The notes beneath the pieces were generated by a model. The model did not search any database. It saw only the letters and a list, made by a program, of their open reading frames with translations, and was not told the origin of the DNA. 20,402 bases of DNA from a virus. A program made the position numbers and the translations under genes. Position 1 is the stretch's first letter. Every line of letters starts with the position of its first letter. Location: IMG/VR virus record IMGVR_UViG_3300044695_000171, positions 1-20,402 of that record; one strand, 5' to 3'. Of the stretch, positions 357 through 6,889 are shown in pieces.

Positions 357-556
357 TGCAAGCCTCTGAAGATAATGTCCTAGAGTATCTTCGCAAGAAG
401 TTTCGGGACATGATGAACGTCCACGCAGATCACGTTGCCACTGGCGGCGTGGCTGACTGGTCTGAATACCGGCATCAAGTTGGTATTATTGAGGGTTTGG
501 CGAAAGCCGAAAGGGAATTGCTTGACCTAGAGGAACGCCTTGGTCGGCAGGACTAA
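356..556 (+). CDS. Small acidic helical protein of unknown function
   Basis: A 66-residue protein with no domain I can name. It is predicted largely helical: LEYLRKKFRDMMNVHADH at the N-terminus and GLAKAERELLDLEERL at the C-terminus, separated by GGVADWSEYRHQVG. The ATG at 356 is preferred because AAGGG (345-349) lies 6 bases upstream. A GTG at 353 would add one residue but leaves only 3 bases of spacing. The gene overlaps the stop of the portal-like gene, suggesting translational coupling. Short proteins of this style commonly follow the portal gene in environmental phages. A head-assembly role is only inferred from position. Confidence 0.75.
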   Translation: MQASEDNVLEYLRKKFRDMMNVHADHVATGGVADWSEYRHQVGIIEGLAKAERELLDLEERLGRQD

Positions 557-614
557 TCGCCCATAGTGGGTGCAGGGTATCGCACGACCCTAACAGTGCG
601 CGCAAAGGACTACT

Positions 615-3050: not shown

Positions 3051-3959
3051 ATGGCTATTTCACGCGCACAGCTTCTCAAGGAACTGCTTCCGGGTCTGAA
3101 CGCTCTGTTCGGCCTGGAATACAAGCGGTACGCTGAGGAGCATAAGGAAATCTACGAGACTGAGAACTCGGAGCGTTCCTTTGAAGAAGAAGTGAAGCTC
3201 TCGGGCTTCGCGGCTGCCCCCGTCAAGAACGAAGGCGCGGCGATTGCGTATGACAACGGCCAGGAAGCCTGGACCGCCCGTTATACGCATGAGACCATCG
3301 CGTACGGGTTCTCCATCACCGAAGAGGCGATGGAAGACAACCTGTATGACAGCCTGTCTGCTCGTTACACCAAGGCGCTCGCGCGCTCGATGGCGTTCAC
3401 GAAGCAGGTGAAGGCTGCGTTCCCCCTGAACAACGGCTTCACCAGCTACCAGTCTGGCGATGGTGTGACGCTGTTCAACACCCAGCATCCGCTGGTGTCG
3501 GGTGGCTACAACAGCAACCGCCCGGCCACCCCGGCTGACCTGAATGAGACCAGCCTTGAGGCTGCGGTCATTCAGATCGCGGCGTGGACGGACGAACGTG
3601 GTCTGCTCATCGCGGCTCGTCCGCGCAAGCTGATCGTGCCGCCGTCCAACATGTTCGTTGCCACCCGACTGCTGGAGACGGAACTCCGTACCAGCACGAC
3701 GGACAACGACATCAACGCGCTGAAGTCCAACGGGTCCATCCCGGAAGGCTACACGGTCAACCACTTCCTGACCGACCCGAATGCGTGGTTCCTCTCCACG
3801 GATGTGCCGAATGGTATGAAGCACTTTGTGCGTTCGCCGCTCGCCACGTCGATGGACGGCGACTTCGACACGGGTAACGCTCGCTACAAGGCTCGTGAGC
3901 GTTATAGCTTCGGCGTGTCTGATCCGCTGGGCATCTTCGGCTCGCCGGGCTCGTCGTAA
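3051..3959 (+). CDS. Major capsid protein (Mu gpT-like, HK97 fold)
   Basis: A 302-residue protein, the usual length for the Mu gpT-like family of HK97-fold capsid proteins. Characteristic stretches are MAISRAQLLKELLPGLNALF, EYKRYAEEHKEIYETENS, AYGFSITEEAMEDNLYDSLS, FNTQHPLVSGGYN, RPRKLIVPPSNMFVATRLLE and, near the end, ARYKARERYSFGVSDPLGIF. An acidic/hydrophobic N-terminal arm precedes the beta-rich core, and no prohead-protease cleavage region is obvious. AAGGAGG (3035-3041), a near-perfect ribosome binding site overlapping the previous stop codon, lies 9 bases upstream of the start, fitting very high expression. The gene is followed directly by a strong terminator. Confidence 0.9.
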   Translation: MAISRAQLLKELLPGLNALFGLEYKRYAEEHKEIYETENSERSFEEEVKLSGFAAAPVKNEGAAIAYDNGQEAWTARYTHETIAYGFSITEEAMEDNLYDSLSARYTKALARSMAFTKQVKAAFPLNNGFTSYQSGDGVTLFNTQHPLVSGGYNSNRPATPADLNETSLEAAVIQIAAWTDERGLLIAARPRKLIVPPSNMFVATRLLETELRTSTTDNDINALKSNGSIPEGYTVNHFLTDPNAWFLSTDVPNGMKHFVRSPLATSMDGDFDTGNARYKARERYSFGVSDPLGIFGSPGSS

Positions 3960-3980
3960 GACGAGTCTCCGGGCTAAGGG

Positions 3981-4009
3981 TAGGGGGGCTTCGGCCCCCC
4001 TATTTTTTT
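3981..4009 (+). terminator. Intrinsic terminator after the capsid gene
   Basis: A perfect 9-bp GC-rich stem: TAGGGGGGC (3981-3989) pairs with GCCCCCCTA (3994-4002) around a stable UUCG tetraloop, followed at once by seven T residues (4003-4009). It begins 22 bases after the capsid stop codon and is a textbook rho-independent terminator. It would limit read-through from the head operon into the downstream genes. Confidence 0.95.
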
Positions 4010-4013
4010 GTGC

Positions 4014-4043
4014 TTGCTGTAACCTTTCCAGACCGGGCATAAT
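4014..4043 (+). promoter_or_regulatory. Candidate sigma70 promoter behind the terminator
   Basis: TTGCTG (4014-4019) and CATAAT (4038-4043) resemble -35 and -10 boxes with an 18-base spacer. The site starts 5 bases after the terminator T-run, in a 172-base gap that otherwise has no gene. It would drive the small virion genes and the lysis cassette independently of the head operon. The match is good but not perfect, and a phage-specific polymerase promoter cannot be excluded. Confidence 0.5.
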
Positions 4044-4131
4044 ACAGACAGTTCCGGGGTAATCCGGCTCTACTGACTGTCCCGGCAGACGCGCACGAAG
4101 ACAGTAGAGCCTTAGATCGTGCGAGAGAAAC
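4044..4131 (+). promoter_or_regulatory. Structured 5' leader with pseudoknot potential
   Basis: GGCTCTACTG (4066-4075) is perfectly complementary to CAGTAGAGCC (4102-4111), with a 26-base loop. Within the loop CGCACGA (4092-4098) is perfectly complementary to TCGTGCG (4117-4123), which lies downstream of the stem and touches the only SD-like bases (GAGAG, 4123-4127) before the ATG at 4132. Together they could form an H-type pseudoknot. ACAGACAGT (4044-4052) can instead pair with ACTGACTGT (4072-4080), with one mismatch, excluding the first stem. The pairings are directly visible; a regulatory role is inferred. No T-run follows, so the switch would act on translation or RNA stability and not on termination. 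Confidence 0.5.
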
Positions 4132-4602
4132 ATGGCGTTCTCGACTTTTTCTGGTCCCGTTCGCGCTGGCCCCATCCGTGAAGGCGCTGCCCGTAACACT
4201 GGCCTCGTCACTCTGGTTCAGTCCTACGATACGGGCGTTGTGACGGCTGGCGCTGGCAACGTGGACGCGGCTCTCGGCATTCTGCCCCAGGGTTCCCAGA
4301 TCGTGGACATCACGGTTGATCAGGTCGTGGTTCCGGGCGGCTCTTCGACCTCCACTGTCTCGGTCGGTAACGCGACCGGTGGCGCGCAGCTTATGGCTGC
4401 TGTGGCTACCACGGCTGGCGGTCGCTTCCGTGGCACCACGACTGCGGCGACGCAGCTTGCGTGGCAGACCTCGACCACGGCTGATACGCCTGTGTTCGTG
4501 CGCTATGCGGTTGGCACGGAAGCTGGTGTTGGTCGTGCGATCATCACCGTCTCCTATGTCCAGCGCGCTCCGAACGGCGCTCAGAACCCTGCCACGGCCT
4601 AA
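4132..4602 (+). CDS. Probable virion protein, beta-rich
   Basis: A 156-residue protein, rich in Thr, Val, Ala and Gly, with few charged residues, starting MAFSTFSGPVRAGPIREGA. It has repeated short beta-strand patterns (GSQIVDITVDQVVVPGG, STSTVSVGNATGG, ADTPVFVRYAVGTEAG, RAIITVSYVQRAPNG). Similar openings (FSGPVRxGPxR) recur in small structural proteins encoded after the capsid gene in environmental phages. The composition suggests a head-surface or decoration protein, but no named domain is recognised. It is the first gene of the transcription unit after the capsid terminator. Its ribosome binding site is weak (GAGAG, 4123-4127) and adjoins the proposed pseudoknot. Confidence 0.75.
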   Translation: MAFSTFSGPVRAGPIREGAARNTGLVTLVQSYDTGVVTAGAGNVDAALGILPQGSQIVDITVDQVVVPGGSSTSTVSVGNATGGAQLMAAVATTAGGRFRGTTTAATQLAWQTSTTADTPVFVRYAVGTEAGVGRAIITVSYVQRAPNGAQNPATA

Positions 4603-4624
4603 CAGCTAAGGGAGGGTTTGCGTC

Positions 4625-4927
4625 ATGCAGACAGATGTCCTTGCTAGCGCCGTCCGCACGACGGACGGCGTGATGAATGACCAAACCGGTAACGCGATTG
4701 GGCGTTGCCGCGTGAAGGGTATCTACATTGTTCCTGCCGCTGGGGCTGGGTCCGTTGCCTTTAAGGACGGCCTTACCGCTGGGGCAGCAAACAAGATTAC
4801 CGTCAACACGATCACTGGCTCGACCAGCACCAACTGGCTCCTCATGCCGGGTGAAGGGCTTCTCTTTCAGAACGGCATCTTTGCCGACCTGACAGACGTT
4901 GCCTCGGTGATGGTCGTCTATGGCTAA
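4625..4927 (+). CDS. Small probable virion protein
   Basis: A 100-residue protein starting MQTDVLASAVRTTDGVM, with beta-rich segments RCRVKGIYIVPAAGAGSVAF, NKITVNTITGSTSTNWLLMP and a C-terminal FADLTDVASVMVVYG. It resembles small conserved phage proteins found near capsid genes whose strands suggest a compact beta-barrel or sandwich. Its function is not established. AGGGAGGG (4608-4615) gives a strong ribosome binding site with about 9 bases of spacing. Its stop overlaps the next start by 8 bases. A head or head-tail component is the most economical reading. Confidence 0.75.
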   Translation: MQTDVLASAVRTTDGVMNDQTGNAIGRCRVKGIYIVPAAGAGSVAFKDGLTAGAANKITVNTITGSTSTNWLLMPGEGLLFQNGIFADLTDVASVMVVYG

Positions 4928-5189
4928 GACCCCTGCTTGGCAGCGTGCCGAAGGCAAGTCCAAGGCAGGCGGTCTGAATGAGAAGGGGCGAGCTTCTTAT
5001 AACCGGGCCAACCCAGGGAAACCTGGGTTGAAGCCTCCTGCCCCGAATCCAAAGACGGAAAAGGACGCTAATCGGCGCAAGTCCTTTTGCGCCAGAATGA
5101 GTGGGGCAAAGAAAAAGCTCACCTCGGCCAAGACTGCCAACGATCCCAACTCGCGTATCAACAAGTCCCTGCGCGCTTGGAAATGTTGA
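4920..5189 (+). CDS. Small basic protein of a recurrent phage family
   Basis: An 89-residue, strongly basic, Pro/Lys/Asn-rich protein. The N-terminal half, PAWQRAEGKSKAGGLNEKGR, is followed by a disordered KPGLKPPAPNPKTEK linker. The conserved C-terminal block RRKSFCARMSGAKKKLTSAK continues with TANDPNSRINKSLRAWKC. Proteins with both blocks recur in environmental phages. I think they belong to a named DUF but cannot confirm the number. The charge suggests nucleic-acid contact or packaging inside the head; this is inference. The start overlaps the previous gene by 8 bases (GGTGA at 4907-4911 as a weak ribosome site). The next gene starts 2 bases after the stop. Confidence 0.8.
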   Translation: MAKTPAWQRAEGKSKAGGLNEKGRASYNRANPGKPGLKPPAPNPKTEKDANRRKSFCARMSGAKKKLTSAKTANDPNSRINKSLRAWKC

Positions 5190-6371: not shown

Positions 6372-6889
6372 AAGACAACTTTGAACGCTGCCTGAAGTTC
6401 GTCCTGCACCATGAGGGTGGCTGGGCAGATCATCCCCGTGATCCTGGCGGCGCGACCATGAAGGGCGTGACCCTGGCCGTCTACAAAGAGTACCTTGGCC
6501 GTGAGGTGAGCAAGGAAGAGCTTCGCGCCATTCCAGACGCCCACCTCCACGACCTCTACCGCACTCGCTACTGGGACAAGGCTCGCTGTGATGAGTGGGC
6601 TCCAGGCGTGGACTTGTCTGTTTTCGACCTTGCCGTGAATGGTGGAGTCGGTCGTGCAGCCAAAATGCTCCAACGTTGTGTTGGGGCAGAACCTGATGGC
6701 GCTATCGGCCCCAAGACCATTGCTGCGGTTAACGCTGTCCCAGCCAAGAACCTCATTGTTCGCTTTGCTGAGGACAGGCGTGAGTTCTATAAAGGTTTGA
6801 AAACCTTTGATACGTTCGGTCGCGGATGGCTTCGCCGCACTGACGACTGTGAAACCGAAGCCATGAAGATGGCAGGAGATTTGCGATGA
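6368..6889 (+). CDS. Endolysin, glycoside hydrolase family 108 muramidase
   Basis: A 173-residue peptidoglycan-degrading enzyme. The GH108 signature is near the N-terminus: HHEGGWADHPRDPGGATMKG, followed by VTLAVYKEYLG. Glu16 of the EGG motif is the expected catalytic acid. DLYRTRYWDKARCDEW and the FDLAVNGGVGRAAKMLQRCV helix follow. The C-terminal part (EPDGAIGPKTIAAVNA) is the small peptidoglycan-binding fold usually fused to GH108. The family cleaves the glycan backbone of murein. There is no signal peptide, so release through a holin is expected. The start is GTG 6368 in a GTGA overlap with the holin stop, with AGGA (6354-6357) 10 bases upstream. The same frame is open back to 6284, but that part is only the holin gene read out of frame. 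Confidence 0.93.
   Translation: MKDNFERCLKFVLHHEGGWADHPRDPGGATMKGVTLAVYKEYLGREVSKEELRAIPDAHLHDLYRTRYWDKARCDEWAPGVDLSVFDLAVNGGVGRAAKMLQRCVGAEPDGAIGPKTIAAVNAVPAKNLIVRFAEDRREFYKGLKTFDTFGRGWLRRTDDCETEAMKMAGDLR

Follow-up and report, generated by a model that had tools for sequence, protein, structure and literature searches.

The window, by which we mean the whole stretch of DNA analysed here (20,402 bases of an IMG/VR virus record), has a leader gap between the major capsid gene and a 156-aa gene starting at 4132, and the question is whether the pairings visible in this gap belong to an RNA that acts on the gene behind it. The initial annotation had listed a 10-bp stem, a 7-bp pairing of its loop with the region of the Shine-Dalgarno (SD) sequence and a competing hairpin, and had placed them at a capsid-lysis junction. 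The latter has to be corrected to a capsid-to-cement junction, since gene 4132 resembles capsid cement proteins in its predicted fold. The features of the locus are, in order:

3051–3959, + strand: major capsid protein gene (Mu gpT-like/Phage_capsid_4), directly 5′ of the leader gap; Pfam PF25209 and PF10124 above cut-off, PHROG major head protein
3976–4007, + strand: intrinsic terminator 3′ of the capsid gene, GGGGGGCTTCGGCCCCCC plus a T run
4014–4043, + strand: putative sigma-70-type promoter, TTGCTG (4014–4019), 18-nt spacer, CATAAT (4038–4043)
4054–4058, + strand: helix A, 5′ strand CCGGG, pairing with 4081–4085
4066–4075, + strand: helix B, 5′ strand GGCTCTACTG, pairing with 4102–4111 over a perfect 10 bp; pair counts and covarying columns
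4077–4079, + strand: hairpin D (3 bp), 5′ strand CTG, pairing with 4086–4088
4081–4085, + strand: helix A, 3′ strand CCCGG, in the loop of hairpin D
4086–4088, + strand: hairpin D, 3′ strand CAG
4090–4100, + strand: lone long-range pair C4090-G4100, flanked by the conserved unpaired A4076, A4089 and A4101
4092–4098, + strand: helix C, 5′ strand CGCACGA, pairing with 4117–4123 over a perfect 7 bp
4102–4111, + strand: helix B, 3′ strand CAGTAGAGCC; pair counts and covarying columns
4117–4123, + strand: helix C, 3′ strand TCGTGCG, adjoining the ribosome-binding region
4124–4131, + strand: weak SD-like stretch (AGAG) and spacer, from the sequence
4132–4602, + strand: predicted capsid cement (decoration) protein gene, 156 aa, N-terminus MAFSTFSGPVRAG; from Foldseek and the annotation of phage DSL-LC04

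In this order the helices cross each other three times, A with B, A with D and B with C. The 10-bp stem (helix B) and the loop-to-SD pairing (helix C) are perfect where the initial annotation had put them, and helix A, helix D and the lone pair 4090–4100 come in addition to its list. The lone pair, together with the three conserved As, outlines a three-way junction. When the letters of 4040–4150 were shuffled 3000 times, a perfect 10-bp stem arose in three shuffles and the stem plus a 7-bp loop-to-3′ pairing in none. A control against shuffled sequences had been suggested for the stability of these pairings; it holds for the combination of stem and pseudoknot but not for energy, as the nested-only fold was unremarkable compared to shuffles (z 0.10; z −1.00 for the trimmed element). 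Since the nested fold energy is not unusual, the proof has to come from covariation, and comparative evidence was needed.

A search with the 4132 protein yielded 80 viral loci, the upstream regions of which have a like layout in other letters. A DNA pattern derived from the core (CCGG, 8–30 nt, GACTGNCCCGGCAGA) was found in at least 120 stretches in IMG/VR, many of them preceding proteins too divergent for the protein search. Furthermore, a covariance model (R1) comprising only helices B and D was built from 44 sequences, which match it by construction. R1 matched 86 times in one set of loci and 93 times in another (together 196 sources), with E-values down to 3e-19, and in IMG/VR the leader element has more than 150 covariance-model matches, in sequences of water-dwelling phages. 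A home-made scanner for the structure, free of sequence constraints, was not selective enough, as it also matched 75 of 120 shuffled strands, and R1 was used instead. Among isolates, R1 detected the element in Pelagibacter phage HTVC023P (E 6e-12) and phage DSL-LC04 (E 2e-4), with one copy per complete genome; similarly, 29 of 30 long viral records carry one copy and the remaining one carries two.

Some divergent leaders were recognised by eye. The layout is kept in HTVC027P (L320, about 6480–6551), with a 7-bp helix A (ACTGTAT/GTACAGT), and in 023Pt_psg01 (L329, about 4430–4529), also with a 7-bp helix A (ACTATAC/GTATAGT). In both, hairpin D has 2 bp, helix C (CCTAG/CTAGG) overlaps the SD, and R1 misses the leader. 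Planktothrix phage Pag-Yong1 (L322, about 4955–5008) has only B- and C-like helices, 5′ of a MSTTLFPAPVKVG protein and with the SD inside C. These three leaders were left out of the counts, as were CRP-901 and CRP-902, which are without a parsed fold.

In the bacterial and archaeal genomes scanned, the element is nearly absent. When 84,980 bacterial and archaeal species (one genome each) were scanned for the commonest core, 10 contigs matched, and only one of these, a metagenome-assembled contig, held the full-length element. R1 on eight bacterial genomes (about 36 Mb; 150 candidates per genome were scored) gave one full-length match, on the metagenome-assembled contig G034 (L284), and one further partial match (E 0.01). 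The contig of L284 is binned as Candidatus Paceibacterota, and its element (480–570, minus strand) lies 5′ of a MGQTTFTGPV protein; because the neighbouring genes are phage-like, the contig probably comes from a phage and was misbinned.

Across the homologs, bases on both sides of the helices change together. In helices B and D, 90.9% of the cells are paired compared to 64.3% after shuffling, 176 cells are changed on both sides compared to 55, and the covariation score is 0.718 compared to 0.197, dropping to 0.15 or less when the partner is slid by 1–3 columns. Hairpin D, for instance, occurs as CTG/CAG, CAG/CTG, CCG/CGG and CTC/GAG. Helix A is absent from R1, and its 5′ strand is the exact complement of its own 3′ strand in 45 of 47 representatives, which were drawn from elements with a parsable A helix of at least 4 bp. 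Fourteen representatives have a changed 3′ strand (CTCGG, CTTGG, CCTGG, CCCAG, CTAGG, CCTAG or ACCGG); the exact new complement is found upstream in 12 of these, the old CCGGG in none. Helix C, which is likewise absent from R1, forms at least five pairs in 47 of 47 representatives; with the 3′ zones permuted among sequences, this number falls to 15.5 on average and to 24 at most. It has compensatory variants such as CATACA/TGTATG, CATATA/TATATG, ACATGC/GCATGT and TCCTCA/TGAGGA.

In a mutual-information scan of a sequence-only alignment of 75 elements, the helix B pairs took ranks 1–6, followed by the unexpected pair 4090–4100 as the seventh-best covarying column pair. At this pair, 90 distinct elements have C-G and 12 have U-A; six apparent C-A pairs look like indexing artefacts. 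In addition, G-U pairs (58) greatly outnumber A-C pairs (8) in helix B, which indicates that the element functions, and is under selection, as + strand RNA. By this comparison, the leader of the cement gene is a pseudoknot in which the crossing helices A/B, A/D and B/C covary. The initial annotation had also proposed to look for homologous leaders that lose the pairings without compensation; in a wide range of phages, stem and pseudoknot are retained.

In the window, CATAAT ends 10 nt 5′ of helix A, and the usual promoter spacing would put the transcription start near 4050, a few nt 5′ of helix A; TTGCTG-18-CATAAT was missed by a stricter promoter scan. In the homologs, −10-like hexamers cluster 7–10 nt 5′ of helix A (13, 20, 8 and 7 matches, 48 in total, versus about 2 per offset elsewhere), and visible promoters keep a nearly constant distance to helix A. 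In roughly half of the representatives no promoter can be recognised at this distance, and many of them show a terminator-like hairpin directly 5′. In L183, L242, L184 and L181, among many others, this hairpin ends a few nt 5′ of helix A with no visible promoter, suggesting that such leaders are reached by read-through or from an unrecognised promoter.

At the other end, the SD overlaps the 3′ strand of helix C in 25 of 50 representatives and begins 0–2 nt 3′ of it in 14. It is placed elsewhere in seven, and four have no 4-base match, some through parsing errors; these include the window, where the 4124–4131 region has no match of at least four bases to the SD consensus. Thus the predicted SD lies within or beside the helix in 39 of the 50, as in SD-sequestering riboswitches.

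The AlphaFold model of the 4132 protein has a pLDDT of 72.5, with the first 23 residues mostly below 50. Foldseek with this model gave the KHP30 cement protein 7dn2 as best match (E 1.4e-4), followed by the Pam1 capsid chain 7eel_H (3.1e-4) and the GP4 capsid chain 8h89_J (1.1e-3). Because plant-virus coat proteins score similarly in the same list, the match reflects a common beta fold, and the resemblance of gene 4132 to capsid cement proteins is supportive rather than decisive. The predicted fold is like that of the KHP30, Pam1 and GP4 proteins, whereas the sequence is divergent from them, a sequence profile alone reaching E 0.1 against cement proteins. The DSL-LC04 gene at the matching position is annotated ‘cement protein’. 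A PHROG label of 4132–4602 as ‘Rz-like spanin’ is a weak match contradicted by the fold match and the context, and is probably wrong. No close isolate relatives of the cement protein were found by tblastn, and isolates were reached through the capsid protein. In the accessible parts of the literature on the KHP30, Pam1 and GP4 proteins, no leader RNA element is mentioned at their genes.

In most loci the upstream neighbour of the element is the capsid gene, and the proteins encoded downstream form several groups that differ in their bodies. Among 94 distinct downstream N-termini, 81 carry an arm of the F-S/T-G-P type (TTFSGPV), and most of the others a variant. This arm, TTFSGPV(R/K) (4135–4170 in the window), is common to cement/decoration proteins with different bodies, as if leader RNA and arm had stayed in place while the bodies behind them were swapped. 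In the cement protein of Pam1, the equivalent N-terminal loop is likewise extended and contacts the capsid protein (PMC9698820). L060 and L190 carry the element twice, with the additional copy 5′ of an unrelated 94-aa gene that lacks the TTFSGPV arm. Leader and cement gene are separated by a GIY-YIG homing endonuclease gene (4247–4993) in L060, and L029, L030 and L036 have the same arrangement as judged from the position of the element; this insertion explains loci that first seemed to lack the element. Further loci have other endonuclease-like genes between the capsid gene and the leader.

Rfam 15 contains no family that matches the element in the window at the gathering cut-off, and in E-value mode (nine plus eight element loci and the window stretch) only low-scoring chance matches fell on it. 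RF03012 was tested as the obvious candidate because of its location: its name, Mu-gpT-DE, presumably means a place 3′ of Mu gpT-like capsid genes, as for the leader here. In 12 records, this model gave no match over its cut-off and none at the coordinates of the element. Literature searches for the motif or for a cement/decoration leader RNA, with most subscription journals and bioRxiv preprints outside their scope, returned nothing relevant. The initial annotation knew of no described element with this layout, which agrees with Rfam 15 and these searches. The leader is best regarded as a new class of probable cis-regulatory leader RNA in phages, a new family of a known general kind.

Two known systems are similar. 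The T4 gene 32 leader pseudoknot is an autogenous translational operator located far upstream of the SD. Like it, the element is a pseudoknot in the leader of the mRNA of an abundant phage protein and is thought to control ribosome access; however, the fold is another one, helix C includes or abuts the SD, and protein binding is putative. The SAM-II and preQ1-II riboswitches are compact pseudoknots involving the SD region, which is also the case here. Unlike these, the leader has no Rfam match, belongs to a phage structural gene, is nearly absent from the scanned bacterial genomes and has an extra pseudoknot (A with D) and the lone junction pair.

We suggest that the element acts as the structured 5′ leader of the cement-protein mRNA. 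Wherever a promoter is recognisable, the RNA would start a few nt 5′ of helix A and fold into a compact pseudoknotted junction, with helix C taking up or abutting the SD. The folded state should limit access of the 30S ribosome, so that the leader may set or switch cement translation. Stem and pseudoknot at the SD of the next gene would fit a translational operator, and the most economical reason for a fold conserved at one gene would be to match cement supply to capsid assembly. Control could be exerted by cement protein that has not been assembled, or by some other phage factor, although the identity of a ligand is speculative. On the sequence evidence we consider it rather probable that the leader controls translation of the cement gene, perhaps under feedback regulation. 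A more specific version is tentative, and we would give it a minor chance: unassembled cement protein, or its TTFSGPV arm, binds the junction and locks the SD, and is released as growing capsids take the protein up, which would make this a new class of phage RNA coupling translation to virion assembly. The second copy before the arm-less 94-aa gene weakens arm-mediated autoregulation, arguing mildly against it.

Alternatively, the fold might not regulate translation and might instead stabilise the 5′ end, or form a processing-resistant cap, against 5′-end-dependent decay of an abundant late mRNA. Two points speak for such a role: cement protein is needed in large quantity, and in members with a promoter the inferred 5′ end is only a few nt away from helix A. 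However, a plain hairpin would suffice for it; the junction As, the 4090–4100 pair and the coupling of helix C to the SD would be unneeded, and the many members without a promoter at that distance imply an RNA 5′ end elsewhere. We therefore regard it as unlikely. A riboswitch that senses the state of the infected cell through a small host metabolite or ion seems less likely still. A compact pseudoknot beside the SD with conserved unpaired nucleotides would be analogous to SAM-II or preQ1-II, but the gene behind the leader is structural and has no metabolic link, and no Rfam riboswitch matches. Metabolite riboswitches are usually present in host genomes too, whereas the 84,980-species scan gave the full-length element in a single metagenome-assembled contig.

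The conserved inverted repeats might also act in DNA rather than RNA, as an operator or recombination site. The homing endonucleases and the different cement bodies around the element would suit a site of gene exchange, yet pseudoknotted helices with the G-U excess in helix B, and a fixed place and orientation just 5′ of the downstream SD, make a DNA-only role very improbable. We give even less credence to the switch proposed in the initial annotation, in which a hairpin between 4044–4052 (ACAGACAGT) and 4072–4080 (ACTGACTGT) alternates with the 10-bp stem. The letters do pair at eight of nine positions in the window, but the pairing is not conserved: the window alone among 51 representatives has 8/9 pairs, and homologs average 3.7, compared to 3.5 when permuted. 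Moreover, most of its 5′ arm (4044–4049) lies between the −10 box and the inferred transcription start. By this comparison, the competing pairing is a chance match outside the element. A CCGG/CCGG hairpin was rejected as a general alternative to helix A, since only 19 of 52 representatives could form it and most of those with a changed helix A could not, and no conserved alternative (ON) fold was found among the representatives.

The leader thus represents a strongly supported structured RNA family that Rfam lacks and that recurs in many phage records of environmental origin. If the assembly-coupled reading were true, cement synthesis would track capsid number. A conserved leader at a single site, in phages with cultured hosts, makes the question of how phages balance capsid and cement directly testable.
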